From Enchytraeus crypticus (lineage: Eukaryota; Annelida; Clitellata; Enchytraeida; Enchytraeidae), in the NCBI GenBank assembly GCA_905160935.1, contig CAJHZI010000887.1:79501-143500 (forward strand): DNA of 64,000 nucleotides, in the 5' to 3' direction. Below the pieces are notes generated by a model. That model saw nothing but the letters and a program-made list of their open reading frames with translations. It was not told the origin of the DNA and made no database searches. Made by a program: the position numbers and the translations under genes. Every line of letters begins with the position of its first letter. The first letter of the stretch is position 1. Positions 4,722-62,749 of this stretch are shown here, piece after piece.

Positions 4722-7700
4722 TCAGTGTGGAATGTTTCTTCGCCTCGTGGAGCCCACCTCATCTCCACCCCTCTCTACACCCTGCTCCTGATCGGAGATA
4801 TCTGACCTACTGACCTCTTCAATATCATCATCCTGCAACACATACACACTAGCGATATAAAGCAGAAACCAAATCATACAATAGCAACTGTGTTGTCATT
4901 ACTCGTGTTCTGTATTGTCGAGTTGTGGTGCTTTGGCGCCTGTTTGTGTAGAGTCTGCAAGAGACGTCCCTGACATTGCTTATGGCGAGGAACCGGACGT
5001 TAAATTCCTATTCCTATTGATTGATTAATTGTGTCCGGGTTGCTGAAGAATAGACCAACCGTAGACTGCACGGTTGGTAAAAGGCAACAAAGCAAAAAAA
5101 TCCAAACAAACGTCAGAAAGGGTATTTGGTCGGTGAGCGTCTAAGCACCAGAAATTGTTACAAGTTTTAAAAATTTTGACCCTAGTTAAACCGGGATTCA
5201 AGAAAGATGATGATGATATAATAATACAATATATCTGTCAGACAGATATATTTTTATACAATAGTGTCTATCAGTTTATGCTAGTTAGATGGATCGACCC
5301 ACAGCTTGCAGCCAGCTTGTCGATTGGTCGCACATCGTTCAGTCAATCAATCAATAATATATCAGCTGAGCAGTCAATGAGTTGGTGGATCAATCAGCAG
5401 TCAATCAGTGAATCACCCATCAGTCAGTCAATTAATCAACCTACCATTCAACCAAGCAACCAAGCAAGCAACCAACCAACCAAGCAAGCAACTAACCAAC
5501 CAACCAATCAATCAATCAATCAGTCAATCAATTAATCAATCAATCAATACCTCAATTTACCAATCCATCAATCAAACCATTCATCCAATCCTCAATTATT
5601 CCATGAATAAACCCAGTTTCAGGACTACGGTTCCAGACAGAGCACAATGCCTCCAGGTGTCGCCACAGTTTTAACTACAAACCTCTTCATAGTATTAACA
5701 GTATTAACTACAAACCTCTTCATAGTATTAACAGTATTAACTACAAACCTCTTCATAGTATTAACAGTATTAACTACAAACCTCTTCATAGTATTAACAG
5801 TATTAACTACAAACCTCTTCATAGTATTAACAGTTTTAACTACAAACCTCTTCGTAGTAATAACAGTTTTAACTACAAAACCTCTTCAGAAGGGTCGCTT
5901 CCCTCTCGCTCTGTCTTCTTGTCCCCCGAACCATCCAAGTCATCCGCTAAATCCTCATCCTCAAACTCTTCCTCATCCGGGTGACCTCTAGCTGCAGCGT
6001 GACCTCCCAGCATGTCACACAGACATACGCAACCCTATAGGCACACATACACACAGTGATACTATCACACATACAGAACCCTATACTCACACATACACAG
6101 CGATGTCAGCACACATACACAGTGATATTAGTACACACACAGAACCACATACAGTCTATTTGTATCCCGACCCTGGTTAAACTGGGAATCAAGGGAGGAT
6201 GCTGATGATGATGATGCTGAACCCTATACTCGCACATATACAGAGATATTTCACACATATACATAGATATCATCACACATAACGAGATATAACTAATTAT
6301 GGCATAAATTAATAGACTATATTATATAAAATATGGTATTAATACAGATAACAACACATTAATAACTAAGTCTAAACTCCTAAGCATGATATAAAACCAA
6401 TATCTGAGAGATCTCAGTACCTCGGAGATAATTGTAATTAATTAAGAGACTGCCAGCACAAAGTTAGTTCATTACAAATCTACCCTGACCATTTTTGATC
6501 ACCGGACCGGCTTTCGTTTAGGACCTTACTTCACCTCAGCACATTTCTTTTCCAGAACGGTTTGGGTGAAATTATCTGTAGTGATGTGTGCTTTTGTAGT
6601 TATCAGGACGTCCCTGACGTCATCCCTGGATGAGGAAATGGACGTTAAACCTTTGTTATTATTATTATTACAACCAAACGTTGGACCCTTGTTAACAACG
6701 CCATCAACAGCTAATAAAAGAAAGCAGTAGAACAAGAACTACTGACCAATCCCAGAGCTAGACCAATGAGGAGAGTGGCAACGGCTATCGCGAGGTAAGA
6801 CACCCACACCGGTATTCCATAGTCCGTCGTTACACTCGTGTGCAGGTTCTAAGCATAAAAAATGCAGTATAATGCTCTGCCTTTAAGCTTCTGTACACAT
6901 TTCTAAACGCACGTTTTACAAAGATATTACTCCGTCATACAGCTGTTACAGCTGTGTAAAGGTTTCAAAATGCACGACATACAATGATATTTACTCTGTC
7001 ATACAGCTGTTTACAGATTTTAAATCATGACATACACTGGCTGGAACCAGTGGCGATGTTGGTAAGATATTCGTTCGCGGTTCAGTAAGTGCGGGGCTCA
7101 AATCATGGGCTCACCCATCACTGACATCGCTCTCAAGAGATGAAACTGACTTTCAGATTAATTAGCTTTACCAGCTTTAACACTTACAGGTACATGAGCA
7201 CTTACAGGTACACAAACAATTACAGGTACACTAGCACATACAGGTACACTAGCACTTACAGGTACACCAGAACTTACAGGTACACCAGCACTTACAGATA
7301 CACTAACACTTACAGGTACACGAACACTTACAGGTACACTAGCACTTACAGGTACACTAGCACTTACAGGTACACTAACACTTACAGGTACACTAACACT
7401 TACAGGTACACTAGAACATACAGGTACACTAGCCCTTACAGGTACACTAGCACTTACAGGTACACTAACACTTACAGGTACACTAGCACTTACAGGTACA
7501 CTAGCACTTACAGATACACTAACACTTACAGGTACACTAGTCATTAAGGACACACTAATAATTACAAGTTTACAACGAGTTATGCATACAGAGACAAGTA
7601 GCTTACCCTGATGGCAATGGAGCCCTGAAAGAAGATTGCCATAAGACTCATCCTATAATAGAACAATCAACCAGCCTAATCCATTTACACCGCATGTAGT

Positions 7701-10700
7701 TCAGACGCACTTAATCTCAAGATCAGAAGCACAAAGTTTCTCTTACAGAAGATTCAGTGCATTAGTGCTACCATCATCAAGTATTCTCTATCTCTTAGTG
7801 AACTGCCCACTGGCAGGTCTATGGTGCACAACGCCTCCACTCATCTCCATTTTCCATTTTACTTTTCATGTCCACTTATGAGTGGATCTTTAAATCGTCC
7901 ATATCATTCCTTTTGTTATACCATTATTCTTGGGGGATTCTGCTTATGACGAGGTGGGCCTCCTATGCCTTCCTCAGCTTCGACTAAACTTTTACTGGGC
8001 AGGGGTGTCATTGCTGAGAAAAACAATCTTGTTTTTCCCAACATCACATACCAGATTATGCTTATTAGACACTTAATTTAATAAAGTATGCATAGCTTGG
8101 TACTTAGAATAGATTGAGAGTTACACAAAGTATAAACAGTTTAGTACTGAGCGTAGATTGAGAGTTGAATATAAAAAACACAAAGTATAAACGGCTTGAT
8201 ACTGAGTGCAGATGGAGAGTGGAGTTAATTCCGAGATCTACGTAATTTCCGTTAATGAAATAAACATGCATTACATAGTGAAATGATCAACTATGTCATC
8301 ACTAATATCGATCACTTTTAATACCTCATGTTTAATCCGTTAGGCAATTTTGTCCATTTTCCGTGTAACCAGTCCAGTGAATGTCTGAGATTTTACGCTC
8401 AGATCAGCGCGGCTGGGATTCGAACCAGCGAGAGTTTAATTCACCTCAGGATCTGTCATTTAAAAGTTCATGACGTTACCTCTACGCTATTGAGACATTC
8501 TACTCGTTGGAAGTATTAGTATTGGCAATGGCTCATTGTAGCAAGTTGACACTTACAGCTTGGAGTTGGGAGCGAGGTACCAGGACACAGGTTCAACTTC
8601 AGCCCATTTCTCATCTATAACAAAACTAGAGAGGTCGTTCTCTGTACGGGATCTCTTGTACTGTCGAAACACTCCGTCCTTCACGCTGTATGGACAATCA
8701 CATTAAACCACATAAACACTCCGGCCTTTACGTTGTATGAACAATCACATTAAACCACATAAACACTCCGGCCTTTACGCTGTATGAACAATCACATTAA
8801 ACCACATAAAAAATTTATTTTAAAAAAGTAAACACACATTATAGTGAAATGATGAACTATGTTGATATCTACACTTTTAATACCACATGTTTAAACCATT
8901 AGGCAATTTAGATCATTTTCCGTATAACCAGTCCAGTGAATGTCCGAGATATTACTCTCAGATCAGCATGGCTGGGATTTGAACCCGCAAGAAAAACCCT
9001 GTTCTTCACGCTGTATGAACAATCACATTAAATCACATAAACACCCGTCCTACACGCTGTATGGACAATCACATTAAACCACATAAACACCTGTCCTTCA
9101 TGCTGCATGGACAATCACATTAAACCACATAAACACCCGTCCTACATGCTGTATGGACTATCACATTAAACCACATAAACACCCTGTCCTGCATGCTGCA
9201 TGGACAATGACAATAATGTAATTTAAAAATATCAGTGCACTCTTAGTTTAAGACTCCTTTCAAGTTTCATGTGGTTTGGGAACAGTTGTAACTTTAACAT
9301 TTTGTAAAGCAGATATTCTATTCTATTAATAGTTTAGGTTTAATTACTTTTGTTTGAAAAACATCATCATCATCAGCTTCCCTTGAATCTCAGTTTAACT
9401 AATGTTGGAATACCAATAGACCTTATTTTCCAATTATTTTAAAAAATTTAGAATGTTAGAACACATTAGAATACGTAGGAAAATTTAAAGTAATGCTCGA
9501 ACCCTTTCATAACTAGAAATAGGGAAACAGGTTTTCTAATCATGTAGAGCTTTCACTTTTTGTAAGGCGGGATAAGGGAATGGATGCAATCATATGCGAT
9601 CATACAGATAAAAGGGTTAGCCACAGAAACATATGAATATGGATTGAAATCCATGTAATTTGCTTCTTAGCTAAACCAATGAAAAATAAAATTTTAATAA
9701 AGAAAATAAAATATTAAAATTAATGTTTACTTTTAACTTTCTAAAGAGAATGGAAAAGTTTCTATTAATATGCTAACACAAGTTTACCTGGGATTCAAGG
9801 GAAGATTATGATGATGATGCACGTATAATTTTAAATTCAGTATTATCTTATATTCACTTTGAAATTAAATTGTAAAAATGTAGTTAGATATTAAATATTG
9901 AAATTACTTATTTCAATTTTTTGCTTAAGCAAATAATAGAAGATACAAACTGATAGATGGTCGGCAGAGAGGTGATAAAGAATCGACCACTGAGAGCTGT
10001 ACGAAATTAACAAAAACAAAATTTATTAGCATACACACAAATCCAGGTAACTTCTTTGTTCGTAAGACAGCTTACCGTAGACCACCAGGCAGGCAGGTTA
10101 GAGGTATGTCCTCAACGATATGCACAAAGTGGTGAATCACGAATACCACAGAGAAGCAGACTTCTCTGCATCTGACCCGTACAGAAACGATTCAAATGAC
10201 ACTAACTTCCTCTAACTTTCTCTGTAAGACACTCGACCGCGGATAAGTATGTGCAGAGTTTAAATCCTGGGCTCGCCCATCACTGACATCGCTATCGAGT
10301 GAGGAAACTGACGTTAACATTAGCTTTACCAGCTTTTAAGGGGATTCATTCCTGAAAGAGATGAGACGGATCCTGAACAAGATAGGGGCTCAGAATAAAA
10401 GGTACAAAAATATACAATACCAAGAAAAATTATCATAAAAATGGATTATACAACAGCCCTAGAGCAATTTTTATATATCTTTAGCTAGAAATAATGATAC
10501 TTGTAATTGAAAATATGAACTAAGGTTTATAAGAGAAGATCAAAAGCAGCAGGCTACAGTTGGCTTTAGTGACGTTAAAGTACAAAAACTATAAATACAC
10601 GATTTAGGATCATCACATCAAATTGCTTTTAAATCTGATCATCAGAAGACAATGTGCCCAGTACACTTGTAGATACGGTACCAGCTCAACAACAAGTATT

Positions 10701-12668
10701 GCAGGAAAGAGAAAGAAAATTACAGGCAACGTCTTTAATTAAGTGCCTTCATGAAATGTTTCTCAGATTGTAGCCCAATATTAATGTACGTTATGATAGA
10801 GTTATGGTAAGGCTTACCTTAGTATCTTACAAATAAAATTGAATTTTAAAAACCAATCTTTACTTTATCGCAATTTTATTACACCACTTGTTGGATTGCC
10901 AAGAATTTTTTACACAAATTGGCAGAAGACAGAGACAGTAGATGTCGGCCGATACTGATAAGGAAAGTAGGGATGAAAAGAAAAGCATCAAATAGCAATA
11001 ATTTGATAAGACTGTAGATTATCTGATATCTTCCCTCATGGACCTTAAGGAAGGAAGATATCAGGAAATTAGAGGCATTGGAAATGTGGATATGGCAAAG
11101 AATGGAAAGGAAAAAAGGCAGAGGCAGGCCGAGATTAGGTATATTAGATGATTTAAAGATCCACTCATATGTGGACATGAAGAGGAAAGCAGAAGACAGA
11201 AAAGAGTGAAAGCGCTATATACCATGAACCTGCCAGTAGGCAGTGCACTAAGAGAGAGATGATTTAAAGATCCGCTCATATGTGGACCTAAACAGGAAAG
11301 CAGAAGACAGTGAAGAGTGGAGGCGCTATATACCATGAACCTGCCAGTAGGCAGAGCACTAAGAGAGAGATGATTTTAAGATCTACTCATATGTGGACAT
11401 GAATAGAAAAGCAGAAGACAGATAAGAGTGGAAGTGTTATATACCAAGGACCTGCCAGTAGGCAGAGCACTAAGAGAGAGAGAGAGATAGATGAATTAGT
11501 CAAGACTAACCAGCGTTCTCGGTTACGTCAACGTCTGCCACCTTGATACGCATGTCAGCGGCACGTCTGCTGAGACTCTCCCACACAGGAGTCAGAGACT
11601 GACAGGCGGGGCACCACGGCGTAAATACATTGCGTAAATACATTGCGTAAATACATTGCGTAAATACATTGCGTAAATACATTGCGTAAATACATTGCGT
11701 AAATACATTGCGTAAATACATTGCGTAAATACATTGCGTAAATACATTGCGTAAATACATTGCGTAAATACATTGCGTAAATACATTGCGTAAATACATT
11801 GCGTAAATACATTGCGTAAATACATTGCGTAAATACATTACAAAACTATAATAAAAACAATAGCCGAACTATATTTTGATGGTATTGCTACTATATGACA
11901 GTAGCATCACTCAAAAAAAGTAAACATGCATTATAGTAAAATGATCAACTATGTCGATATCTATAACTTTTAATACCACATGTTAAACTTGTTAGGTTAT
12001 TTAGTCCATTTTTCATGTAACCAATCCAGTGAATGTCCGAGATTTTACTCTCAGATCAGTGCAGCTGGGATTCGAACCCATGAGGGTTCAATTCATCTCA
12101 GGATCTGTCAAATAAAACTTCATGACGTTACCACTACGCTATTGAGACATTCTAAAACAGTAAATAAAAGTAAACTAAATGTACATTAGTGAAAGCAGAG
12201 CACTAAATTTGAAAAGATATCTATATAGAAATTAAATATAAATAAAGAGAACTAGAACACGAACGAAGGTTAAAAAGAATGCTACCTTACACCCAGGCTA
12301 GCATAACACTTTCACTAATTTTTTTGAATTAACTGCGACAAGAAAAATTTGTCATAAGTTAAAATCATAAATTTTTTTTATAAATAATCAATAACAGAAT
12401 TGTACCACGTTAATCTTAATTTAATACAAATATAATAAGTAAGAAATAGTAGAAACAATACGAACAACTTAATAAGCCATTCTCCCTGCAGCATTTTCTC
12501 CCAATCGGAGTCCGTTAGGCTCTGAACAGCTGATGCTGAATTAACCTCGTTACGTCCCTTACCAGAGGGTAGGGTCTCAGAGGACAACACAACACTTAAA
12601 TATACATATATCAATGCCAGCCTAAAGCCGCCATGACGAAAACTCCCTAATCCTAATAGTTGATTCAT
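4722..12668 (-). CDS. TMX1: TMX1-like thioredoxin-related transmembrane protein
   Basis: Probable ER membrane thiol-disulfide oxidoreductase of the protein disulfide isomerase superfamily. Coding exons, minus strand: 12668-12462 (or to 12460), about 11620-11511, 9996-9951, 8685-8557, 7652-7607, 6848-6747, 6034-5882 and 4832-4722. Phases join throughout, giving about 301 aa, near the usual TMX1 size. Residues 1-35 form a signal peptide. The thioredoxin domain has the active site WCPAC (Cys73 and Cys76) and the cis-proline motif SLPT in exon 3. One membrane helix lies near residues 193-216 (exon 6). The tail is acidic, as in TMX1. Exons 2 to 8 use normal GT donors and exons 3 to 8 use AG acceptors. 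The junction of exons 1 and 2 has no AG because a 13-bp minisatellite fills it. The identification rests on residue-level resemblance along the whole protein. NOG1 lies 1.9 kb upstream in the same orientation. Confidence 0.9.
4900..5035 (+). mobile_element. Repeat D, longest copy
   Basis: A short interspersed repeat with a body containing GTGGTGCTTTGGCGCCTGTT, then AGAGACGTCCCTGACATTGC, GGCGAGGAACCGGACGTTAA and an ATTGATTGATT tail. The same body is seen at 20337-20440 (minus) and 45720-45873. It shares its final ~40 bases with SINE-1 and repeat E. It lies in the last TMX1 intron. Confidence 0.65.
5036..5225 (+). mobile_element. LINE-A 3' tail
   Basis: Matches the 3' end seen at 60415-60690: GGTTGCTGAAGAATAGACCA, then TTAAACCGGGATTCAAG and a GATGATGAT tail. 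It directly follows the tail of a repeat D copy. Confidence 0.65.
5335..5590. repeat. CAAT-rich tetranucleotide tract
   Basis: Degenerate CAAT/CAGT/CAAC repeats over about 250 bases in TMX1 intron 7. Several frames stay open across it, producing an artificial Gln/Ser/Asn-rich reading frame. Confidence 0.75.
5672..5881. repeat. 33-bp minisatellite copying the exon 7 donor of TMX1
   Basis: About six tandem units of 33 bp start at the real 5' splice site of TMX1 exon 7. On the minus strand each unit carries GAAGAG followed by GTTTGTAG, the same junction as the true donor GAAGAG/GTTTTGTAG at 5882/5881. The intron therefore opens with a series of near-identical donor sites. Confidence 0.85.
6540..6665 (+). 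mobile_element. Repeat E copy (short form)
   Basis: Contains ATCTGTAGTGATGTGTGCT, GGACGTCCCTGACGTCATCC, GGATGAGGAAATGGACGTTA and a TTATTATTA tail. Same short form as 57740-57860. It lies between TMX1 exons 6 and 7. Confidence 0.6.
7038..7180 (+). mobile_element. SINE-1 copy in TMX1 intron 5
   Basis: Complete head GGCTGGAACCAGTGGCGATG, a B-box variant GCTCAAATC, and a 3' end reaching TTAGCTTTACCAGCTTTAAC. It runs directly into the 18-bp minisatellite at 7183. Confidence 0.7.
7183..7548. repeat. 18-bp minisatellite with donor-like units
   Basis: About 20 tandem units of CACTTACAGGTACACTAG with few changes. Each minus-strand unit contains CCTGTAAGTG, a good match to a 5' splice site, and each plus-strand unit contains TTACAGGTACA, which looks like an acceptor. 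The 18-bp period keeps all frames open, so the Thr/Tyr-rich (plus) and Val/Ser-rich (minus) frames are artefacts. Confidence 0.85.
7790..7925 (-). mobile_element. LINE-B 3' end fragment
   Basis: The block ACTGGCAGGTCTATGG and the following ~110 bases match the LINE-B coding 3' end on the minus strand. The GA tail is reduced to TCTCTATCTCTTAG. Confidence 0.55.
8270..8501 (-). mobile_element. tRNA-derived SINE-2 copy, near full length
   Basis: SINE-2 read on the minus strand: GAATGTCTCAATAGCGTAG (A-box region), a B-box GGTTCGAATCCC, GCGCTGATCTGAG, a body, and a 3' end containing GATAGATATCAAC-like and GTGTTTAC blocks. Copies of this family also lie at 11918-12153, 18870-19095, 39352-39595, 50395-50630, 50775-51005, 58150-58398 and 63600-63844. 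In TMX1 intron 4. Confidence 0.75.
8690..9205. repeat. 47-bp minisatellite copying the exon 4 acceptor of TMX1, split by a SINE-2
   Basis: About eight units of ~47 bp, counting the real exon start. On the minus strand each has GATTGTCCATACAG followed by CGTGAAGGACGG, the true 3' splice site and the first ~17 bases of exon 4. Positions 8820-8990 are a truncated minus-strand SINE-2 inserted between units, so the array was already expanded when the SINE landed. Confidence 0.85.
9362..9430 (-). mobile_element. LINE-A 3' tail fragment
   Basis: CATCATCATCAGCTTCCCTTG and the next ~50 bases match the LINE-A 3' terminus on the minus strand. A second short remnant, plus strand, lies at 9775-9825. Confidence 0.55.
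10215..10340 (+). mobile_element. SINE-1 copy in TMX1 intron 2
   Basis: The head is partly lost. From GACACTCGACCGCGGAT onward it follows the family through the 3' motif and TTAGCTTTACCAGCTTTT. Confidence 0.65.
11040..11490 (+). mobile_element. LINE-B 3' end with terminal segment in three tandem copies
   Basis: The plus strand encodes the LINE-B C-terminus (KLEALEMWIWRRM-type, then a GRGRPRLG-like stretch). The last ~115 bases, from GATGATTTAAAGATCCAC to the GA tail, occur three times in a row (about 11140-11256, 11257-11370, 11371-11490), each ending CAGTAGGCAG...CTAAGAGAGAG. It lies in TMX1 intron 2, immediately after exon 2. Confidence 0.75.
11619..11839. repeat. 13-bp minisatellite at the TMX1 intron 1 acceptor
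   Basis: Seventeen perfect units of GCGTAAATACATT (221 bp) abut the first codons of TMX1 exon 2. The minus-strand unit AATGTATTTACGC contains no AG, so no standard acceptor exists where the protein alignment puts the exon start. Thirteen-base periodicity leaves all three minus frames open, giving artificial MYLRNVFTQCIYA-type frames. Confidence 0.9.
11918..12153 (-). mobile_element. SINE-2 copy in TMX1 intron 1
   Basis: Complete from the 3' block (AGTAAACATGCATTATAG on the plus strand) to the CTATTGAGACATTC head. The B-box reads GGTTCGAATCCC-like on the minus strand. Confidence 0.75.
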
Positions 12669-14468: not shown

Positions 14469-14474
14469 TTTAAT
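14469..14474 (-). promoter_or_regulatory. Possible poly(A) signal of NOG1
   Basis: ATTAAA on the minus strand about 130 bases after the NOG1 stop, a common variant hexamer. No AATAAA was seen nearer. The AT-rich setting makes a chance match likely. Confidence 0.3.
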
Positions 14475-14601
14475 TATTTGCAGACTCTATGAAATCCGCG
14501 AAATTCACAAGATAAAGAGGAAAAATAAATGTACAGTGGCATAATATACACCCGTCCAAATCGATACAACAAAACATCGCACCAAGCGCAGCGGAATAAA
14601 T

Positions 14602-17600: not shown

Positions 17601-20600
17601 ACAAAATACACTACACCATAATACAGTATTGCAAAATACAATACACAGTTATTCAGTATCACAAAATAAAATACAGAGCAATAGAATACGTATTGATTTT
17701 ACCCAAAGTACCTAAATTAGTTAAGTACCTAAATAAGCCAAGGAGCAGGCACATTAGTTCTTTGCCCATTCTGCAGTTACTAAGATTCCAAACTTAAAAT
17801 TTGTAATTGAATATAATTGTTAAAAACTACCTTTTACTTATTTTAATTATATATAACTACTTTTTTATTGATTATCATCAATAAAAAAGTAGTTCAATAA
17901 CTATTCACTAAATTTATTAACTAACCAATTAATTTATTAACACAATCCATTCCACTAAAAATATTCCACAATCCATTCCACTTTTACTCATGTTGTGTCT
18001 GGGTTGCTGAAGAATAGACCAAACGTGAATTGAGCATGTCATAAAAGGCGCGCCTAGTTTCCAGAAATTGCTATATATTTCTAATCCTGACCCTAGCTAA
18101 AATGTGATTTAGTGTGAAGAAGATGAAGATGATGATGAATCAGTTCCACTCACCTGCATGATCTGCGGGTCGATGAAGTCAGCAATGTTGTGACCGTTCC
18201 AGATCTCAGGTACCACATCGTACTTCTCCTCAGGCTTAGCGAGGTCGTAGTGCTCTGCGCAACGGTAGCAAGACAGTCCAATTAAATGTGTATATAATTA
18301 ATTTACAACAAATTAATATAAAAAATTAATTAATTCACAACAGGCTAATATATCTCTCTCCCTCTCTTTCTCTCTCTGTCCTCAGTGCACTGAGCAACGG
18401 TAGCAACAAAATCCAATTTAACTATGCCAAAATCAACTCAAAAGAAGCTAATGTAAATAATTAAACAATATAATATATTACAACGTAATATATTATATAC
18501 ATATAACATAACATAATATAACTATATACATTCATTTAATAAATAATAAACGTTTATATATAAATAATTAAACATTTTTTGGCCGAACACAATTTGTAAA
18601 AATTGCCAGAATCCGGCAGAACTGGAATCTGCTGCACTGCTAGTAAAAGTAAAGTGCTCACTGTCAGATGGTCAACTTTTTGCAAAAACAATGCCAGATA
18701 TCTTTGCTTATAGAATACCTGCCTATCTGACATTACAAAATGAAAAATTCATCGTCCAGAACAAGTCGGAGTATTGGCACAGTTAAAGCTAACAAAATCT
18801 TTCCAATAATATGAAGCACACATCAACAGCAACTCTCGGTAACATACCCAGTTTAACGGCAATTTAATATTAACACACACACATTACAGTGAAATAATCA
18901 ACTATGTTGATATCTATCACCTTTATTACCACATGTTAAATCCGTTCGGCAATTTCAGACCATTTTCCGTGTAACCAGTCCAGTGAATGTCCGAGATTTT
19001 ACTCTCAGATCAGCGCGGCTGAGATTCGAACCCACGAGGGTTCATTTCAACACAGGATCTATCGTTTAAAACTTCATGACGTTACCACTACGCTAGTAAC
19101 ACAATCCAATTACATATGCAAATATCAACTCAAAACAAGTTATTATAAATACTTAAACTATATAATATATTAAACTATATACATTATCCAGGGTTCGTAT
19201 GTCACTGACATCGCTTTCGAGTGAGGAAACTTATATTAGCTTTGTGTTACTATACAGGTACTTGTACATATCCATAACGGTCCATTTGTCCCAGCGACGT
19301 TCAAGTGCTTTTACACTGAAAGATTGTATTCATCAATTTTTACCCATTTACACACTGAACCTAGGTTCATACACCAGTCCTCTTGTTAGCGTATTTATAC
19401 AATTAAAAACCTTAAAATTAATACTACTTCACTAACTTTTAAGATCCAAGAAGTAATCGTCTCCTAGCTCCAGCATTAGATCCTTTTCCTACAGCATTCA
19501 AATTAGCAATATTAGCGCAAGACATCATCAAATGGTATTATATCAAATTACATCGAGCCGCAAAAATTTATTCTGTAAAAAAAGTTATGCAAGTAAAATT
19601 AGAAAAAATAATGTTTAGTAGGGTATATCATGTAAAAGCATCTCTACACTTTACAACAATTACATACAATAAAACAAGCAGTATACAATAAAACAAACAG
19701 TATACAATAAAACGCTCATATTAAAAAGGACCACAATGTCAAAATAGACCACTAAAATACTGGAATTTTTACTGCAAACAATTTTTCTAAACGAGTCCAT
19801 TAGAATGAAGCTTCAACAGTTACATCAGCAGGTGGCAGCGATGGTAAAATACTCACAAGTTCAATAAGATATACTGTTTCAATACCCTAGATGACATTAC
19901 GTCTCAGACAGTCCACTTATGGCACGAAATCAGACGAAAAACTCTGCTTTTTAAAGTAGAAACTCATTCACTATCTTCATAGATATATTTATTTAGGTCC
20001 CGTCTATTTAAACTTGCAATATTATTTACATTTTTAAATAATTTTTAAAAGCATCTATAGCTTGAAAATGAATATCCTAAACAAATATAATACACAATTA
20101 GATTACACAAAAGGTTAAATATAAATTTGCAGATATTAAATAAAGGTGTCTAATACTAACAAGTTTCTTTTTAACGGCTCCAGTAGTCTGCATCTGTTGG
20201 CGTTTCTTCAACACGGCCTCAGGAATGCATGGAGGTCTTGCCTACATACAATACAACGTCAGTGTGCAAAATAATTCCTGCTAATTTCTATTGAAGAGAT
20301 ATAAGCTTATTTTCATTTTTGAGAGTATTCTAATCAATCAATATGCATTTAACGTCCGATTACTAGCCATAAGGCAACGTCAGAGACGTCTCTTGCAGAC
20401 TATACACAAATGCTCCAAAGCACCACACGATGACGACTGAGTACACAGAGACCACAAGAGAAAGTGAGATCAATACAGTGTGAGATCCAAGGCAAGGGGG
20501 TCAAAATTTAGACTTATGACCTAATGACTCATTCTTCAATACCACTATGGATAACTCTCTTGAATGCTATTTGTATGTAATTAAAATAGTAGCAAAATGT

Positions 20601-23600
20601 ATGTGAACAATAAGGGTTGTCAAGTGTTCTTGGTGCTTTAAATACATAAACAAATAGATCGCTAGAGAACTTTGTTTAAATTATTTGTGTTTATTGATAA
20701 ACAAAAAAAGCGGATATCAAGCTAATGTTACGCCACAGACAAAAAAATAAAATAGACATAATCTTATAATTTTATTAATGTTTAACCAAACATATCCCAA
20801 AATCACATTTAATAAATTTAGCAGTAGAAAGCAACAAAGAGAGAAGTTATAATATATACATTCAAAAATGCATGAATTATGCAATGCATTTAAATAATAC
20901 ATGAGTCTACACGTCACCAAGCTGAACCAATATTTAATAAGAGCGAAATGTCGCAATTGTGTAACTATATCAAAAAAATACAATAAATTACTTTATGCGA
21001 GCCAAGAAATAACTAAAAGCTAAAAAAGCTACGGTTAACATCAGTTTCCTCACTCGAAAGCGATGTCACTGATGGGCCAGCCCAGGATTTGAGCCCTGCA
21101 CATACTGATCCGCGGTCGAGTATCTTACCGACTTCACCACTAGCTCCAGCCAATCATCAATTAAATGCACGTACCTTGTCGTCACGCTTGGCAGGCACGG
21201 ACACGTGCAGTCTGTTGATGCAGCTCGTCAGCTTACGTCCCTGAACCTTCAGCTCCGTCTTCAGCGCCAAGATCCTGTCGCAAGCCTGCGTAACAGCATC
21301 ACATGTCAATCAATCAGTGACACACCCACATCTCTTGATACAAGTATGCGTCAAGTAAAAGCATCACATGTCAATCAATTAGTGATACGCCCACATCTCT
21401 TGATACAAGCCTGCGTCAAGTAACAGCATCAACTGTCAATCAATCAGTGACACACCCACATCTCTTGATACAGGCCTGCGTCAAGTATCAGCATCAACTG
21501 TCAATCAATCAGTGTCACGCCCACATCTGTTAGAGGCTTGATACAGGCCTGCGTCAAGTATCAGCATCAACTGTCAATCAATCAGTGTCACGCCCACATC
21601 TGTTAGAGGCTTGATACAGGCCTGCATCAAGTATCAGCATCAACAGTCAATCAATCAGTGTCACGCCCACATCTATTAGAGGCTTGATACAGGCCTGCGT
21701 CAAGTATCAGCATCAACAGTCAATCAATCAGTGTCACGCCCACATCTGTTAGAGGCTTGATACAGGCCTGCATCAAGTATCAGCATCAACTGTCAATATA
21801 TCAGCAACAAGAATTCATTTAGTCCCACAGAATGCAACACAAGAAAATACTGTCATATACAAGATTAGGCATCATTTACAGCATAATCACCACAATTTTC
21901 ATGACAATATAGATTTGATGTTCCATACCAAAACATAACATAATATTCAATACAACCGTTTATAATATATACTAAAAACTGTAACAAAGCAAAAACTATT
22001 ATTTCAATTCTATATGATTAATTTCAAACCGTACGACTTATAAAAGTTGAGACTTAATGTCAACATTTCACATTAGGTAACATAGTCACCATTCAGTTTA
22101 AACTGAAACACATTTACATCAGGCACAATTAATATTGACATTAACTGATTGCATAATATCTCCATAAATCTGCTAAAACTCAGTAAAGAACTGAACTGTT
22201 TAGGTTTTACATTTAACTTTATGCTATTAAATGCACAAGAATAATGCAATAAGAAGATAAGATTTAACATGAATATGATTTAACGTACCAGAGTCTATAC
22301 AGATATAATACATGATAACAACTATTTACCTCCATCTTAACTTTGCTCACTCCCTCTTCCGTCAATGTGCTCATCTCTATCAGTGGAATTCCTTCTTCCT
22401 CCAGCTCATTCAATAGAGCCTGTGCAAGTACAGCAGATATGATTCCACTAGTACAAGAGATATGATTCAACAAGTACGACAGACATAATTCAACAAGTAC
22501 AAGAGATATGATTCATCAATTACAGCAGATATGATTCAACAAGTACACAAGATATGATTCAACATTTAGAGATGATATGATTCAACAAGTACAGCAGATA
22601 TGATTCAACAGTGCCTATATATGTACAGCGGATATGCTGAGGACATTAAGATTACCAATTGGCCCTAGTGAAGGGATCATTCTGATCTAAGCTGAGCTCT
22701 TTTATGATCCTGATGATCTTGATGAAGCCGAATGTGAGTGGAAATATTTTGCTACAACCTGCCATTTGACAGAACACCAGAAGAAGAGTATCTTACCGAC
22801 TTTGCCACTAGCTGGAGCCAGTGGCGATGTCGGTAAGACACTCGACCGCGGATCATTATGTGCGGGGTTCAAATCCTGGGCTCGCCCGTCACTAATATCG
22901 CTTTCGAGTGAGGAAACTGACGTTAACCTTAGCTGTTACCAGCTTTAGCTTTACCAGAAGAAAGAAAATAAGTGAGAAAGAGAGAGAAGAGAGCGCAAAA
23001 GTGAATGACAGAGAGAGAGTGAATGAGAGAGAGAGAGAGGAGAGAGTGAATGAGAGAGAGAGAGGAGAGAGAGATAGAGAGAATAAGAGAGAGGAGAGAA
23101 GTGATAGAGAAGAGAGAAGGGATAGAGAGAATGCAAGAGAGAGAGAGAGAGAGAGAGATATTGAACCTGTTGTTCCTCTTTGAGTTCTGAGCGATGTCTC
23201 ACATCAACCTTGTTCAAGCAGATGATCAGCGGCTTGTTCCTCATCAGCGGTCTGATCGAGCTAAATAGGTCAACCTGTCAGACAGAAAATTAGCTAAATA
23301 GGTCAACCTGTCAGACAGAAAATGTGTTAAATAGGTCAACCTGTCAGACAGAAAATTAGCTAACTAGGTCATTCTGTTAGACAGAAAATGTGCTAAATAG
23401 GTAAACCTGTAAGACAGAAAATGTGTTAAATAGGCCAATCTGAAAGATAGAAAATTAGCTAAATAGGTCAACCTGTCAGACAGAAAGAGATAAAAAGAAA
23501 AGCAGGAACCTTTTAAACAACAACTAGTCAATATTCGCTAGCTAATCTAACAAAAGAAAACGACTATTTATCGTCATGAAGAGAGGAATGGAGAAAATAA

Positions 23601-24657
23601 CGAAACTACAAAAGCAGCAGCTAAGAAAGGAAACTGCATAGCACATGCGGTATGTCATGTGTGTAACTATACAAAAATAATAAACAAATTAGAAAGATAC
23701 TAGGCTTCTGAGCAAGTAGTAAGCATTATTTGAACCTGTTGCTGTATGGTGTAGCCACACTGCTCTGAGAGGTCCATGACATAAAGAACAGTGGCTCTGA
23801 GATGAGCGAGAGCTGTGATAGACTGAGCCTCTATTGTATTACGCTCCTCCAACGGATGATCCAACACACCGGGCGTGTCAATTACCTGCACACACACAGT
23901 CACATAGATGCACAAGCATACACACACACAGGTATACATATATAGGCAAATATACACATGTAGGCATATACACACACATAGACCTACACACACGGATACA
24001 CAGATATACATATATGAATATTGTAACAACGACATAAGAACATATATAGACACTAATATGTAGAGCCTACACATATACAAGTACACACATACACGCACTC
24101 AAATAAATACATGTACATATAGACATAGACACCCACAATCTAGAAGCACACTAGATATAAAAATTGTATACATTAAAACCTAATAAATAGAGAAGTACAA
24201 AAAATAGAAAAACTTCTAAAAGGATAGCTATCCTATCATATAGTTTTTTGCAGTATTTCATTATTTAGAATTATTTTTAATGAAACTTTAATAGAGAAAG
24301 AGAGAGCGAGAAAAATAAAACGTTAATAGAGAAAGAGAGAGATAGAGAGATAGAGAGCGTTAGAGAGAGAGAAGATCAAGTAGTTAACCTGAAATCTACA
24401 GTAGCGGTAGTCCATGTGACCCACAAACAGAGATTTGGTTGTGAATGCATAGGGTTGTACTTCTACATCAGCTCTAGTCACCTATTGATCAATACAAAAA
24501 TCAATAAATAAATCGATCAATCAGTAAATAAGATAACCACTTAATTAATTAGTTTAAAACTAGTGCGTATATGCGTAACATTCTGTCAATCATCATAAGT
24601 CACATATAAACAGCAAAGGTTTAACGACTGTTTCCTCATACAAGCCTGATCTCAGAG

Positions 24658-24736
<79 letters not shown>

Positions 24737-27700
24737 CATATGTATATAAATAACTAAATTCTTATTATACATGTATAGCTCAACTATTAAATCAATCACT
24801 AAGTATAACTGTCAGCCAATCAATCATCAAACTGCGACATAGTTGTAAATGAAAAAGTAAATAAGTGAGAAATAATAATAAATAATAAGAAATAATAAAT
24901 AATAAAATAAAATCTACAAAAATCCGGTAAAGCTAAGGGTAATGTCAGTTTCCTCATTCGAAAGCGATGTTATTGACGGGAGAGCCCAGGATTTGAACCT
25001 CGCACACTCTATCCGCGGTCGAGTATCTTACCGACGTCGCCACTGACTCCAGCCAAATGCACAAGTCATTAACAAATAGTTAAACACACATTATATAGTG
25101 AAACAATCATGCGTGATGATATCTAACACTATTAATACAACACATGCAACCATTAGGCAGTTTACACAGTTATCCATGCTACCAGTCCTGTGAAAGTCTG
25201 AGATATTCAATCTCTGATCAGCTCTGCTGGAAATTGATTCCAGGACCTCAGTAACAAACGTTTAAAATTTAATGACATTAGCTAATTCACTGACCTATTT
25301 AGACATTCACCATACAAAGATAAGATTCATAGTTTCCATTTTAATATCATAATATTTTTAATCGTTGTCAATTCTTCTATTTTATCAACAACAATCGTGT
25401 CATTGTGTTGATTCTGACTATCAACAAGGTACCTGATTCATGTTTCATTTGAATCAAAAATTACACCAAGGTTACATGCAGAATCTGTGGGTATTGAGGG
25501 AATATTTTTAAATGTTATGGTTGAGCTAGTTATTTGCTACGCTGCTTTGGGATGCCTATAAGAAGATATTCAGTTTTTGAAGGATTGGCAACAAGCCGAT
25601 TAGCGCAAAACCAGGAACGAACTAGATCAAGGTTAGATATAAACTATTAACAAAGTGTCAATAAAGTACCTGGTTCATGAAGCTGGATTTTCCCACATTG
25701 GGAAATCCGCTGAGAATGAGAGTGAGTGTATTTGGGTCAATTGAAGGCAGACGACTGAGATGCTGACGTACTTGTTCCAGGTACGACAAACTGTCCTTCT
25801 GCTTCTTCATTATAGTGCAATACCTGACAAGTATCACATAGTAATTTAAAAATAGTGCAGTACCTGACAAGTAATAATAGTAATAATAATAGTACAGTAC
25901 CTGACAAGTAATAATAATAATAATAATAATAGTGCAGTACCTGACAAGTAATAATAATAATAATAGTAGTGCAGTACCTGACAAGTAATAATAATAATAA
26001 TAATAGTGCAGTACCTGACAAGTAATAATAATAATAATAATAATAATAGTGCAATACCTCACGAGTAATAATAATAATGCAGTACCTGACAAGTAATAAT
26101 AATAATAATAGTAGTGCAGTACCTGAAGTGACAAGAGTCACATAAAAATAATAATAATAATAAAGGTTTAACGTCCGTTTCTTCATCCAAGGAAGATGTC
26201 AGGGACATAATTTAATACCACAAAGTGTAGGAGTGCAGTCATTGGTAGGTTTTCGTTAAAATAGTAAGCATTCTCTCTCAGTTGCCTACAGGCAGGTCCA
26301 TGGTATATAATGCCACCACTCTGCTCTGTGTTCCATTTTCCTTTTCATGTCAACATATGAGTAGAACTTTAAATCATCTAATCAGGGTTGGGATAATCAA
26401 CTCATTCAATTAGTCAATCGATTAATCAAAGACTCAATCAAGTCATCGTCTTTTGTGACCATTATAAACTTGTTCGGTAAAATATGCTCAGTAGAGGTCA
26501 CTGAAAACCTTAAGCAGTACTGCACAACTACTTGCAAGACATACGGTCAGTGTCGGCTTAGAATAACAAGAATTTCATAAATGACACAAAATATACTTTA
26601 TTCAACAGTACACGCATGGGTTGGACCTGTAGACATTTGGTACATTGTGCAATTGCAGATCAACGGATGTAAAGGTTCAAATTCCCTTGTCGTCGAGTCA
26701 ATTACTGGTTTTCAAGACAGGAACCTAGGCTTTAAAAAACTAGGCTCTGTTAAACTAGGCTTAAGCATTGAACATGTACAAAATTCAACATCAGTATTCA
26801 AAAATTAACAAAATAATAAAATATATCGGTCGATATTAATATAATAAATATAATAAAAATTATAAACTACCTGCCAAGAGCTGCCACCTTGAGACACTTG
26901 CAGCGATACAAAGAGTCGGAGTATTTCATCAGCTTTATGTACTGCTTAGCAACGCTGACAACCAATCAAACAATCAATAAGAATTTAACGTCCTGTTCCA
27001 CATGCAATGAAATAACTCCACAGACCATTATTGTAAAAACTAGTTAATAAATACGCTATTAACGTAAAAAAAACAGTTCATATATACACATTGTAATTTA
27101 AAACTGTGGATAAATGCATTACTATATTAGTCATTTTATTTTAAACATTTGGTACAATTTTATGCGACACTAGTGTATGCGGATTATAGCAGTTACGATA
27201 TTACTTTAAATAAAGTGAAATGATCACCTATGATATTTATCACTCCTATATTAGTTAAGCCAGCATCAAATTTCATTATAATAATAATAAAAATAATAAT
27301 TACAATAATACAGCATCCAAGAATAACGTCAGAGACATCATATAGCAATTCCAGTCTACATGTAAACCAATAAAATTTAACATTTTTATCGTACAACATT
27401 TATTTAAAGTAAATTCTTTCGAACAATGCAATTTGTTTCGGTTTTTCTGCTCTTGACTTATTTTTTGTGCCTCTTCCTACAATTGATAAAAGCTACGGTT
27501 GTTGCATGAGCTACCCAAAATATCTCCGATGCTTTCACAAGAAGATGACAACAAGTAAAGTAGCAGTCATCAATGGCAACATCAAGCGCTGAAGATTCCA
27601 GAAGTCAAGTCAAAGAAGAAAAACAGCAAAGAAATAACCCGTTTAAACTAAACTTGCTCTCACAGATGAACGTAAAGTTTGACAGTGAAAGCAAAAACTT

Positions 27701-29979
27701 TCAAGCTTCCTAAAGTTTCTTTCAAAGCTTTGGATTTCAGGATGAAAAATTGAGACATTCTCTGACTAATACTAAGAACGAGTTGAAGTTGAAACTCGCA
27801 TTGCGGCGTGGGAAATACAATCAGACCTGTCAATAAGATGTCTGGCCATGTTGATCTGTCCAAGAGCCAACTTGTAGTGGTCCTTATTGTATAGGATGTT
27901 CATAAGGTCAGCATAGAATGGGTGAACATCCTATATACATATAATCAATAAATAAATCAATCAATAGCTTGTAATGGTCCTTGTTGTATAGGATGTTCAT
28001 CAGGTCAGCATAGAAAGGGTTAACATCCTATGTACACATACCATCAATCAATCAATCAGTCAATCAATCAAGAGCTTGTAGTTGTTCTCATTGTAGAGTG
28101 TATTCATGAAGTTAGAGTAGAATGGGTGAACATCCTAAAAACACATTGTCAGTCAATCAATCAAGCAATTAATCAATCAATCACTCAATAGTTTATAGTG
28201 GTCCTTATTGTACAAGAAGTTCATGAGGTCAGCATGGAATGGGTGAACATACTAAACATACTAAAAACACAATCAAATAATCAATTAATCAATCAAGCAA
28301 TCAATAGCTTGTAGTGGTCCTTGCTCTAGAGGATGTTCATGAGATCAACATAATATGAGCAGAAATCTGATTGATGAACTATCCGAAAAATGGCATAATA
28401 CTCTGTAATAATTGAAGTGGCGAGTGGATAGCAATCTTGTCTAATAAGCAGGAGGCCGTCGGTTTAAATACCAGCTGAACCGTCTCCTACAGTTTGGTAC
28501 GGAAACAGACGCTAAGCTTTAAAGAAATATCAATCAATCAATAAGAATTTAACATTCGGTTCATCGCCATAAGGCAATGTCAGGGACGTCAAATAGAAAC
28601 AAATATCAATAACAAATCAAATAGAGCTGTAGCTTACGTCGAGCTTCGGGAAGTCGGTGATGATCTGAGAGAGTTTATCGTGAAAGCTCTGCTGAGCAAA
28701 CTTGATCTTACGACAGTAGAACTGTCGAATGCGACCGATCTGATACTGCCGATGCACCACAGTAGGAGTTTTGCGCTGAGTCTTTGACAGCACAATGTCC
28801 ACAAACTCCTGCAAATATCAACGAAAAAAGAGATATCAATCGAGTACTTAGATAACTATCTCTCTCTCTCTCTCAGTGCAGGAGCCTACTGGCAGGTCCA
28901 TGGTATATAACGCCCGCTCTACTCTGTCTTCCATTTTCTATTCATAAACCTCTATTTTATCTTATTTAAATTCTATTCAAAAACTCCTGCAAATATGAAC
29001 GAAACAAAGAGAAATCAGTTCAGTACGACAACTAGTTAAGATAAGTAAAAGGAACTGCTACTAAGTTTTATTATTAAGTAGGTTTTATAGGTACGCCTGC
29101 TAAGCAAGATAGAAGTAATGACAATTAGCAATTTATCTTTGATCTTTTCAGAATTAAATATTAAGTTAATAAATTTCCAATTAATTTAATTTTAACATGC
29201 TAATTCGACAAATTTATTAGATCTCTCTAATAAATGGGCTGTCAACTAGATAGGATTTATTTATCCTATTTGATGACCCGTTTGTATGTGCAATTTTGTA
29301 TTTCGTGCTTTGATGATAATGCCATTAAACACAGTTCTCTCTCTCTCTCGTAGAAAAAATATTGTTTTGAGGCCTTTTGCTATGGCTTATTTCACAGCAA
29401 AGAGTGGGAGCTGTTTGGTGAACTTGCCACAGCGCCAACGGAGTTCAGCAAAGCTGGCCTCGGTTAGTATTTGGATGGTTGACTACCTTGGAAGACCGAG
29501 CGATGACAGGTTAAAAGAAACACTCCAGGATGTTGGAAGTTTATTCCTAAATCTGCACTGGTAGCAATGGATAGGCTTTCAAAAGACAACAATTATTCTT
29601 AATCGTGAATATAGGAAGAAGGAAAGAACAGCTAATGTACAAGGAAACTACATATCATGTGTCTGTCATGCATCTAACTATAGAAAAATAATAATAATAG
29701 CATTCTAAAGGATTCTAGTTTAGTTTAAGACAACTAATTTCAGTCAATTTTTTGTCAATAAGTCCATGAATTTTAACATGCTTGCCTTGGTTTTCCAGAT
29801 TCCTAAAGAGGTTTTGAGAACTGGCATTAGACTATCATCCTAGTTCTAAGTTAGTTATAGAATTTAAGCAAAAAATAAATAAAGTAAATACTAACAATAT
29901 AGACATAAAATAGACAGCAATACTTTACCTTTTCAGTTGGCACAACAGTTATAGACTTGAAGTTATATCTTGTTGCCAT
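14602..29979 (-). CDS. GTPBP4: Nucleolar GTP-binding protein 1 (NOG1)
   Basis: Nucleolar GTPase needed to assemble and export 60S ribosomal subunits. Seventeen coding exons, minus strand: 29979-29929, 28808-28638, 27930-27827, 26954-26871, 25823-25670, 24481-24389, 23885-23736, 23274-23167, 22419-22330, 21285-21175, 20241-20161, 19488-19437, 18254-18154, 17351-17242, 16646-16493, 15530-15354, 14754-14602. All have AG acceptors and GT donors, and the phases join to 647 aa with one stop. The N-terminal helical part matches NOG1. The G domain shows G1 GFPNVGKSS (176-184), G3 DTPG (222-225), G4 NKVD (290-293) and G5 STLTEEG (from 322). The C-terminal part has [11 protein letters not shown] and RPPRDVSG and ends [11 protein letters not shown]. 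The start ATG is in a good context (AACAATGG). Introns are 0.3-1.9 kb and repeat-filled; several acceptors are tandemly copied. Nothing suggests a pseudogene. Confidence 0.96.
14762..14850. repeat. CAAT tract beside the NOG1 exon 17 acceptor
   Basis: On the minus strand this is TGAT repeats ending eight bases upstream of the acceptor (GATTGATTGACGGTACAG). TTGAT fits the loose branch-point pattern YTNAY. Confidence 0.75.
15192..15330 (-). mobile_element. SINE-1 copy just after NOG1 exon 16
   Basis: A full minus-strand copy whose head (GGCTGGAGCCAGTGGCGTTG) starts only about 25 bases past the exon 16 donor. Confidence 0.75.
15540..15838. repeat. CAAT/ATAG tetranucleotide tract upstream of NOG1 exon 16
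   Basis: About 300 bases of degenerate CAAT and related repeats. The minus-strand edge is GATTGATTGACGCCACAG, so the tract forms the 3' end of intron 15. Confidence 0.8.
16125..16470 (+). mobile_element. LINE-C C-terminal fragment in NOG1 intron 15
   Basis: The plus strand encodes about 110 aa with [19 protein letters not shown], then [11 protein letters not shown] and [15 protein letters not shown]. This is the usual C-terminal end of many invertebrate non-LTR reverse transcriptases. It is unlike LINE-A or LINE-B in detail. The reverse transcriptase itself is absent. Confidence 0.75.
16650..16745. repeat. CAAT tract beside the NOG1 exon 15 acceptor
   Basis: CAAT/CGAT repeats abut the exon. 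The minus-strand acceptor reads GATTGATTGATTAG, so the AG itself grows out of the repeat. Confidence 0.8.
16875..16957 (-). mobile_element. Truncated SINE-1
   Basis: Only the B-box GGTTCAAATCC and the 3' motif remain. The head is missing. Confidence 0.55.
17355..17700. repeat. Imperfect ACAATACACC-type repeats upstream of NOG1 exon 14
   Basis: Degenerate units of roughly 35 bases built on CAATACACCACAATACAGTA fill the 3' part of intron 13, up to the acceptor. They include no clear copies of the splice junction. Confidence 0.6.
17990..18140 (+). mobile_element. LINE-A 3' tail
   Basis: GGTTGCTGAAGAATAGACCA to a GATGATGATG tail, ending 14 bases short of NOG1 exon 13. Confidence 0.6.
18870..19095 (-). 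mobile_element. SINE-2 copy in NOG1 intron 12
   Basis: Near full length. The minus-strand head is TAGCGTAGTGGTAACGTC and the B-box is GGGTTCGAATCTC. Confidence 0.75.
19190..19245 (+). mobile_element. SINE-1 3' remnant
   Basis: Only GTCACTGACATCGCTTTCGA and GTGAGGAAAC of the 3' domain are left. Confidence 0.45.
20337..20440 (-). mobile_element. Repeat D copy in NOG1 intron 10
   Basis: On the minus strand: CGTGTGGTGCTTTGGAGC, TGCAAGAGACGTCTCTGACG, then GGACGTTAAATGCATATTGA and a short ATTGATTG tail. Confidence 0.6.
21020..21153 (-). mobile_element. SINE-1 copy immediately downstream of NOG1 exon 10
   Basis: Complete head (GGCTGGAGCTAGTGGTGAAG) about 20 bases past the exon 10 donor. The 3' end is ACGTTAACCGTAGC-like. 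Confidence 0.7.
21286..21800. repeat. 65-74-bp minisatellite copying the exon 10 acceptor of NOG1
   Basis: Eight tandem units. On the minus strand each has TTGACGCAGGCCTG, matching the real acceptor TTACGCAG/GCTTGCG of exon 10. Units near the exon are about 65 bp; distal ones are about 74 bp because of an added TTAGAGGC block, showing stepwise growth away from the exon. CAATCAATCAGTG is part of each unit. Confidence 0.85.
22440..22625. repeat. 23-bp minisatellite next to the exon 9 acceptor of NOG1
   Basis: About eight units of GTACAGCAGATATGATTCAA-type sequence begin about ten bases upstream of the exon. Unlike the other arrays the unit stops short of the AG, covering only the region where a branch point and pyrimidine tract would lie. 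Confidence 0.8.
22786..22955 (+). mobile_element. SINE-1 with fold-back head
   Basis: A full plus-strand SINE-1 starts at 22814. The 28 bases before it (22786-22813) are an inverted copy of its own first ~30 bases: TATCTTACCGACTTTGCCAC against GTGGCGATGTCGGTAAGA. The result is a hairpin at the 5' end. Confidence 0.75.
22970..23160. repeat. GA-rich microsatellite in NOG1 intron 8
   Basis: GAGA repeats with interruptions next to the exon 8 donor. The Arg/Glu-rich and Ser/Leu-rich frames across it are artefacts. Confidence 0.8.
23275..23490. repeat. 33-bp minisatellite copying the exon 8 acceptor of NOG1
   Basis: Seven units counting the real junction. The minus-strand unit holds TTTCTGTCTGACAG followed by GTTGACCTATTT, which is the true acceptor plus the first twelve exon bases (VDLF). 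Units two to three are almost perfect and the middle ones have decayed. Confidence 0.88.
24658..24733. repeat. TA dinucleotide tract
   Basis: About 37 perfect TA units in NOG1 intron 5. Confidence 0.9.
24930..25056 (-). mobile_element. SINE-1 copy in NOG1 intron 5
   Basis: Head GGCTGGAGTCAGTGGCGACG, B-box GGTTCAAATCC, and a complete 3' motif on the minus strand. Confidence 0.7.
25080..25312 (-). mobile_element. Diverged SINE-2 relative
   Basis: Ends and spacing follow SINE-2, but the B-box region reads CTGGAATCAATTTCC-like. It groups with 31730-31885 and 54880-54970 as a second subfamily whose B-box carries ATCAATTCC. Confidence 0.55.
25824..26125. repeat. Minisatellite copying the exon 5 acceptor of NOG1, spaced by TAA runs
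   Basis: Nine junction copies counting the real one. On the minus strand each carries ACTTGTCAGGTACTGCACTA, i.e. the acceptor and about 12 bases of exon 5, separated by TTA runs of varying length. Because the true exon starts G/TATTGCACT, each copy can in principle splice in the same phase. Confidence 0.88.
26150..26205 (-). mobile_element. Repeat E 3' fragment
   Basis: On the minus strand: TCCCTGACATCTTCCTTGGA, then AACGGACGTTAAACC and a TTA tail. Confidence 0.5.
26270..26380 (-). mobile_element. LINE-B 3' end fragment
   Basis: TACAGGCAGGTCCATGGTAT and ~90 following bases match the LINE-B terminus on the minus strand. The GA tail appears as TTCTCTCTC. Confidence 0.55.
27965..28365 (-). repeat. 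Four extra partial copies of NOG1 exon 3 in intron 2
   Basis: Each unit (~105-120 bp) holds, on the minus strand, a CAAT-type tract, an acceptor and the first ~64 bases of exon 3, and stops at the same point (TACAAGCT or TATAAACT) with no donor. Copies near 27965, 28073 and 28189 remain open and encode variants of [20 protein letters not shown]. The copy near 28312 has an in-frame TAG and a lost acceptor. The intact exon is 27930-27827. Confidence 0.9.
28530..28590 (-). mobile_element. Repeat D 3' fragment
   Basis: On the minus strand: ACGTCCCTGACATTGCCTTA, ATGGCGATGAACCGAATG, and a TTGATTGATTG tail. A tRNA-like block (TGGCGAGTGGATAGC ... GGTTTAAATAC) lies just before it at 28415-28480. Confidence 0.5.
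28855..28965 (-). mobile_element. LINE-B 3' end fragment
   Basis: A CT run (the GA tail on the minus strand) followed by AGTGCAGGAGCCTACTGGCA, matching the LINE-B terminus. In NOG1 intron 1. Confidence 0.6.
29385..29600 (+). mobile_element. 5S-rRNA-like SINE in NOG1 intron 1
   Basis: CAGCAAAGCTGGCCTCGGTT then AGTATTTGGATGGTTGACTA and CCTTGGAAGACCGAG follow the 5S rRNA internal region (A box, intermediate element, C box order), with about one quarter of positions changed. The tail shares blocks with the copies at 3505 and 51385 (TTATTCCTAAATC; TTTCAAAAGACAAC). Confidence 0.55.
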
Positions 29980-34134: not shown

Positions 34135-34320
34135 AGGAAACATGCTAATCCAGTGTAATATTAAGCAAATGTTAAGCTATGGATTTTAATAAACTTATTT
34201 GAATATGCTAATCCAGTGTAATATTAAACAAATGTTACGCTTTGGATTTTAATAAACTTATTTGAATATGCTAATCCAGTGTAATATTAAACAAATGTCA
34301 AACTATGGATTTCAATAAAT
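34135..34320 (-). repeat. 63-bp tandem repeat at the 3' end of gene A
   Basis: Three units built on ATATGCTAATCCAGTGTAAT and TTTTAATAAACTTATTTGA directly follow, and partly overlap, the stop of gene A. The same block occurs once after the head exon at 44708 (near 44690) and in diverged form near 61810, so it is ancestral 3' flank of the family that was tripled in gene A. Confidence 0.75.
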
Positions 34321-45579: not shown

Positions 45580-45719
45580 CTGAAAAAATAAGCGGTTGTT
45601 TAAGTGTGATATAAGCAAGCCCTTAGAAACATTAGCCATACACGTACATGTACATTAAAATATATATAGTATCTACTGTAGATACCAATCCTGTTTGACA
45701 ATAGCACTTTCTACATAAT

Positions 45720-62702: not shown

Positions 62703-62749
62703 CTGGAAAACAATAATCCAATATTTCAGTGTGGTATATTAGACTAAAC

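Follow-up and report, generated by a model that had tools for sequence, protein, structure and literature searches.

Mirage-like tandem arrays concentrate at intron acceptors in sampled genes of Enchytraeus crypticus

Tandem arrays in NOG1 and TMX1

The window, a 64,000-nucleotide stretch of the 524-Mb, 802-contig genome of Enchytraeus crypticus, carries the genes NOG1 (GTPBP4) and TMX1, both modelled by protein-to-genome alignment with human proteins as references (Table 1). The best 120 of 7857 NOG1 relatives include named annelids, molluscs, a brachiopod, a nemertean, amphibians and a lungfish at 63–69% identity, together with one aphid record at 53%. A NOG1 protein tree resolves little, because vertebrates are placed amid the lophotrochozoans.

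A preliminary description of this DNA had reported minisatellites on the splice junctions of both genes, an observation that we confirm: a tandem array lies within the last 20 intron bases at 12 of 22 acceptors, and the corresponding figure for donors is 4 of 23 (Fisher 0.013). When the arrays were shifted round the 5–30 kb region, 26 of 4000 trials brought at least 12 of the 22 acceptors within 20 bp of one (mean 5.8); the donor count in this test was 3 of 23 (mean 6.0). Two of these 22 acceptors are provisional (TMX1 exons 2 and 7, with exon 2 included), and the number within 10 bp of an array is 10 if the TMX1 exon 7 acceptor is placed at 5991, or 11 (matched in 32 of 4000 trials) if it is placed at 6023. 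The acceptor base itself falls inside an array at 4 of 22 junctions, where chance gives a mean of 4.6, so the excess in the window consists of arrays that end at the junction or just over it. With arrays called by TRF, 12 of 23 introns in the window alone have one touching their final 20 nt, where shifts average 7.2 (94 of 5000).

Table 1. Genes of the window and arrays at their splice junctions (exon or acceptor positions in brackets)
Feature	Position	Strand	Basis
NOG1 (GTPBP4) coding region, 17 exons	14605..29979	-	protein-to-genome alignment; GT and AG at each intron
TMX1 gene, exons 1–7; 5' end approximate, exon 8 unsure	5881..12640	-	protein-to-genome alignment
Array at NOG1 exon 3 acceptor (27930), units 107–117 bp, junction copies at -97, -204 and -321	27943..28352	-	
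Array spanning NOG1 exon 5 acceptor (25823), units ~37 bp, 6 AG junction copies	25812..26162	-	
Array across the NOG1 exon 8 acceptor (23274), 33-bp unit, 5 AG junction copies counted	23258..23486	-	
Array ending just short of NOG1 exon 9 (22419), unit 23 bp, distance 6	22425..22610	-	
Array at NOG1 exon 10 acceptor (21285), unit ~73 bp; intron tail and AG copied, with indels	21290..21804	-	partly by eye
Array ending just short of NOG1 exon 14 (17351), units 30/58/88 bp; missed by the preliminary description	17357..17675	-	
Sense-strand (TTGA)n array, just upstream of NOG1 exon 15 (16646)	16649..16741	-	
Sense-strand (TTGA)n array, just upstream of NOG1 exon 16 (15530)	15539..15836	-	
Sense-strand (TTGA)n array, just upstream of NOG1 exon 17 (14754)	14763..14854	-	
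13-bp unit without AG, in 17 perfect copies, abutting TMX1 exon 2	11619..11839	-	
Array across the TMX1 exon 4 acceptor (8685), 47-bp unit; more copies at 9010–9216	8667..8814	-	
Array 17 nt upstream of TMX1 exon 7 acceptor (exon start 5991)	6008..6141	-	
Array spanning TMX1 exon 7 donor, 33-bp unit with GAAGAG|GT	5665..5888	-	read from sequence

The earlier list named at least six arrays whose unit spans a real junction. Counting a junction copy in the window as a match of at least 24/36 to the acceptor word, we find intact AG in all copies at NOG1 exons 3 (3/3), 5 (6/6) and 8 (5/5) and in 6 of 7 at TMX1 exon 4; these four junctions and the TMX1 exon 7 donor, with its copies of GT, stand as described. 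NOG1 exon 10 is a weaker case, with the intron tail and AG copied by eye, a weak exon part, indels needed and a score below 24/36. The TMX1 exon 2 array has to be removed from the list: it abuts the exon, but its unit holds no AG and so does not span an acceptor. A further array, said to stop just before the NOG1 exon 9 acceptor, does so, and this exon also has one junction copy (1/1 with intact AG) 195 bp upstream. Missing from the list were single AG-intact junction copies at NOG1 exons 2 and 13, and the arrays of NOG1 exons 14–17, which lie 3–9 from the exon and of which three are TTGA tetranucleotide repeats. Units differ in sequence from junction to junction, and the shared feature is, as first noted, the place.

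Two arrays in TMX1 deserve separate mention. At exon 2 (11511–11868, minus strand) no AG occurs before the far end of the array, and an open frame runs through each of the 17 copies; the 13-bp array may be exonic, or the acceptor may have been lost in this allele or assembly. Intron 5 holds an 18-bp unit repeated 20 times (7181–7540), 67 nt past the donor. On the gene strand this array carries CTGTAAGTG words that look like donors; it contains no copy of the real one.

Arrays concentrate at acceptors in independent genes

Because a claim should not be tested on the sequence that suggested it, we chose 13 other genes by Pfam family: eight CCT subunits and HSP60 (104 introns; PF00118 matches on 13 contigs, of which 9 were used) and parts of MCM2, 4, 5 and 7 (36 introns; PF00493 matches on 8 contigs, 5 retrieved and 4 used). 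The MCM models are incomplete, truncated by the sequence stretch or by the reference, and the GC donor of MCM5 exon 3 is the aligner's guess. Locus L061, first labelled MCM3 and presumably MCM9-like, was left out of every count, since its model contained a stop and scored low. Counts over 163 introns combine these 140 with 23 from the window, 3 of whose acceptors (TMX1 exons 2, 7 and 8) are provisional; the 140 are free of them. Two PF00118 matches (G000:C259:219813-222410 and G000:C400:245545-248142) have equal scores and 894-residue frames, and represent a duplicated or doubly assembled stretch.

Each junction was represented by a 36-base word, a copy being a match of at least 26/36 within about 500 bp. 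Acceptor words were copied upstream in 30 of 140 introns, about one in five, and donor words downstream in 6 of 140 (Fisher 2.2e-5). Intron-interior words had an upstream copy in 100 of 1080 cases (Fisher 5.9e-5 for the acceptor excess) and a downstream copy in 117 of 1080; for exon-interior words the figures were 2 and 0 of 90. Words moved to other introns gave, for CCT/HSP60, expected copies of 0.08 at acceptors and 0 at donors. An initial self-alignment score was dropped, its control being polluted by arrays in the borrowed introns. Splice junctions in general, the place first proposed, thus narrow largely to acceptors. By gene set, junction copies at acceptors versus donors number 23 versus 2 of 104 (CCT/HSP60), 7 versus 4 of 36 (MCM) and 5 versus 0 of 23 (window), so the bias is weak in the MCM genes alone; TRF arrays there touch 10 acceptors versus 9 donors of 36, which counts against the explanation favoured below. 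For words lying wholly in the intron, upstream copies go from 33/139 at the acceptor to 23/136 at -100, 18/127 at -200 and 9/87 at -400, a gradient that fades over about 300 nt into the intron.

A TRF array touches the last 20 nt in 40 of the 140 introns, where intron-internal shifts have a mean of 29.3 and reach 40 in 30 of 5000 trials; the excess over shifted positions in these 13 genes is modest, which also counts against the favoured explanation. With periods of at least 7, 34 acceptors compare with a shift mean of 26.5 (145 of 5000). In the 104 CCT/HSP60 introns, TRF coverage is about 0.30 from -120 to -40 and 0.11–0.13 from -400 to -320; after the donor it is 0.04 in the first 20 nt and 0.12–0.17 from 20 to 120 nt. 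In introns so rich in arrays some would cross any boundary by chance: about 15% of CCT/HSP60 intron bases are covered, random 20-nt intron windows touch an array in 14–29% of cases, and the acceptor base of window junctions lies within arrays no more than expected. We nonetheless hold chance to be improbable, given that acceptor junction words are copied more than intron interior and donors, that donors fall under the shift mean (17 of 140 against 29.3, with 6 of 5000 shifts as low), and that coverage and copying follow a gradient toward the acceptor and are not flat.

Counting upstream copies of at least 24/36 within 1200 bp, 42 introns have one (34 of the 140 independent, 8 of the 23 in the window). 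They occur in 10 of the 13 independent genes, extending the phenomenon beyond NOG1 and TMX1 as the preliminary description had supposed; there are none in CCT6A, MCM2 or MCM4, which counts against the favoured explanation. Their presence in so many genes also speaks against an assembly artefact, the least probable of the alternatives we considered. The arrays were judged from the assembly, and one consists of 17 perfect copies; against this, point changes distinguish the copies in the five arrays that we printed, and the nine contigs carrying the PF00118 genes each exceed 1 Mb.

AG is kept in 149 of 176 upstream copies, or 149 of 169 without TMX1 exon 2. Were the nearest AG copy used, a frame shift or stop would follow in 34 of 35 cases, with an open in-frame insertion in the remaining one; by coding logic, then, the last copy should be the one that is used, and in the gene models it is the exon-proximal copy that continues into the coding exon. 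Two further ideas were dropped: in-frame units (16 of the 35 nearest AG copies lie at multiples of 3, of which only 1 is open) and selection against decoy AGs (identity at AG positions is 0.87, not below that of adjacent positions). A long series of ~42-bp units, each with 17 exon bases, leads up to MCM7 exon 8, and 83-bp units that include 58 bases of the exon lead up to TCP1 exon 10; two acceptors, those of MCM7 exons 5 and 8, have 14 AG-bearing copies upstream.

Nearest-copy periods range from 33 to 180 bp in 27 cases, and unit sequences differ. Among the 25 nearest copies with a period of at most 130 bp, the intron part has a median of 33 nt (quartiles 26–46) and the exon part one of 18 nt (12–37). 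This intron part is of a branch-point length, as it would be if a splicing intermediate had been reverse transcribed with a halt at the branch point, where units would begin. A fixed breakpoint there, from lariat intermediates, had appeared likely on the first values and failed the slope test: the intron part rises with period as random breakpoints predict (slope 0.69; 0.50 for uniform breakpoints, s.d. 0.16). Breakpoints look unfixed, and we give reverse transcription very little credence.

TTGA tracts and the origin of the arrays

Introns of the independent loci contain 126 sense copies of TTGATTGATTGA and a single antisense one; 41 kb of flanks contain 5. Over the 163 introns, 39 of 138 sense TTGA runs end within 60 nt of the acceptor, a zone that holds 7.8% of intron bases, as do 3 of 20 antisense runs. 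Across the whole genome, (ATTG)4 is followed within 8 nt by CAG 6457 times and by CAC 2122 times, and CAG stands on its other side 2092 times. No gene model enters into these counts, and overlapping starts within long arrays are counted repeatedly in all classes alike. In the retrieved loci CAG comes after TTGA arrays 19 times (8 exactly at a modelled acceptor) and before them twice. TAG stands at 7 after and 8 before, which again counts against the favoured explanation and confines the excess to CAG.

The branch-site consensus yUnAy is loose, and TTGAT fits it. Tracts and arrays might be kept for function, serving as branch sites or enhancers in tandem that reinforce or regulate the choice of acceptor; the strand bias, the near confinement to introns, the fit of TTGAT and the genome-wide CAG excess all speak for this. 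Against it, only 35 of the 140 independent introns have (TTGA)2 in their last 60 nt, 28 of 138 sense runs lie more than 300 nt away, and TTGAT is equally frequent (12 versus 12) in 119 intron tails without TTGA arrays and in control stretches no more numerous than the tails. On balance we think retention for function unlikely.

Duplications at intron–exon boundaries have been described in amphioxus, for which the original Adh paper is said to be that of Canestro et al. in 2002. Known there as mirages, they are tandem duplications of the boundary in Adh3, the globins BflGb6 and BflGb9, PGBD5 and troponin C, which in excerpts of the reports leave splicing apparently undisturbed, involve 5' as well as 3' boundaries and vary in copy number between haplotypes or cells (PMC3087553, PMC3902484). 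The kind of array was therefore not, as the preliminary description had it, without precedent. Going by the same excerpts, the E. crypticus arrays share with mirages their boundary-spanning units (30 of 140 acceptors, 6 of 140 donors), lengths that differ from gene to gene (10–160 bp reported, 33–180 bp nearest-copy periods here), many copies with splice signals and a home in ordinary genes; both boundaries are affected, here with a bias to acceptors. All mirage reports found concern cephalochordates, and amphioxus is absent from the named entries among the best 120 of 7857 NOG1 relatives of the present genome, so we call the arrays mirage-like. What sets them apart is a measured rate, the acceptor bias and the sense TTGA tracts, neither bias nor tracts appearing in the amphioxus excerpts. 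A narrow search of open-access literature showed, among the papers listed, no such arrays outside amphioxus; as far as that search goes, the lineage, rate, acceptor bias and sense-strand TTGA tracts are new.

Tandem duplication can also make introns. In potato RdRp, a duplication across an intron–exon boundary created a new intron (PMC4974935), and the amphioxus authors propose a like route from mirages (PMC3087553). The preliminary description had offered duplication of an AGGT-bearing segment as one possible source of the introns, with the arrays as its traces. This predicts that the head of an intron resembles that of the next exon and its tail that of the previous exon; at a cut-off of 14/20, neither likeness was found in any of 163 introns (0/163 for heads, 0/163 for tails), and we judge such an origin highly improbable. 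The arrays have in common with the potato case a duplication that crosses the boundary. Unlike it, they show neither a new intron nor the AGGT signature, and their copies sit within introns that already exist.

The best explanation, and in our judgement the probable one, is that these are mirage-type arrays, made by slippage or unequal exchange at intron ends and tolerated because the last copy would be the one used. Arrays would be tandem duplications of a short stretch, either the intron end by itself or the intron end, AG included, together with the beginning of the next exon. T/G-rich intron ends with TTGAT-like words may be prone to strand slippage or unequal exchange, and an event reaching across the AG would carry the exon head along. 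Copies would be tolerated because splicing presumably joins the exon at the last one; upstream copies would then be free to drift, and later events would push them further upstream. Duplications of the same type on the donor side would less often be kept. Use of the TTGA tracts as branch sites, like the slippage and the tolerance, is what we infer from these patterns. In favour of this explanation, arrays more than 200 nt from the acceptor have the T>A, G>C skew of intron ends, more so than non-array intron. Identity between adjacent copies is slightly lower at the functional end than within arrays (-0.04, n = 12, Wilcoxon p = 0.09), so the conveyor part of the explanation, with the youngest copies at the acceptor, is not borne out; identity to the functional copy does drop with rank (mean rho -0.53, 9 arrays).

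A bolder version is that in this lineage introns grow from their 3' ends: acceptors would be repeatedly duplicated, spent copies would shift upstream and decay, and sense TTGA tracts would be tandem branch sites of the same origin, leaving in the genome thousands of decoy acceptors that look functional and a standing supply for new introns. We regard this as doubtful. The results suggest that tandem duplication can centre on intron ends throughout a genome. How the spliceosome chooses among near-identical acceptors is an old question, for which about a fifth of the sampled acceptors offer a natural test set, and the mirage route to new introns becomes testable outside amphioxus.

Other features of the window

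A search of the whole window against Rfam at gathering thresholds gave 0 matches. Four long minus-strand frames of about 300 residues (34290–35162, 44711–45622, 47553–48443 and 61843–62748) are related by eye; none has a Pfam match over the cut-off, and two show a weak likeness to beta-propellers. Also on the minus strand, 38088–39263 is a retroelement reverse-transcriptase frame (RVT_1, E 3.9e-28). A 111-bp unit stands three times in tandem at 11146–11481, with a frame like that at 40960–41406 (by eye), and a 219-bp repeat array at 36622–37227 is open in both directions, its minus-strand frame being rich in threonine and serine. A dispersed short repeat, perhaps a SINE, was seen by eye through recurring translated words in many places, for example 1666–1854, 15193–15525 and 21017–21241.
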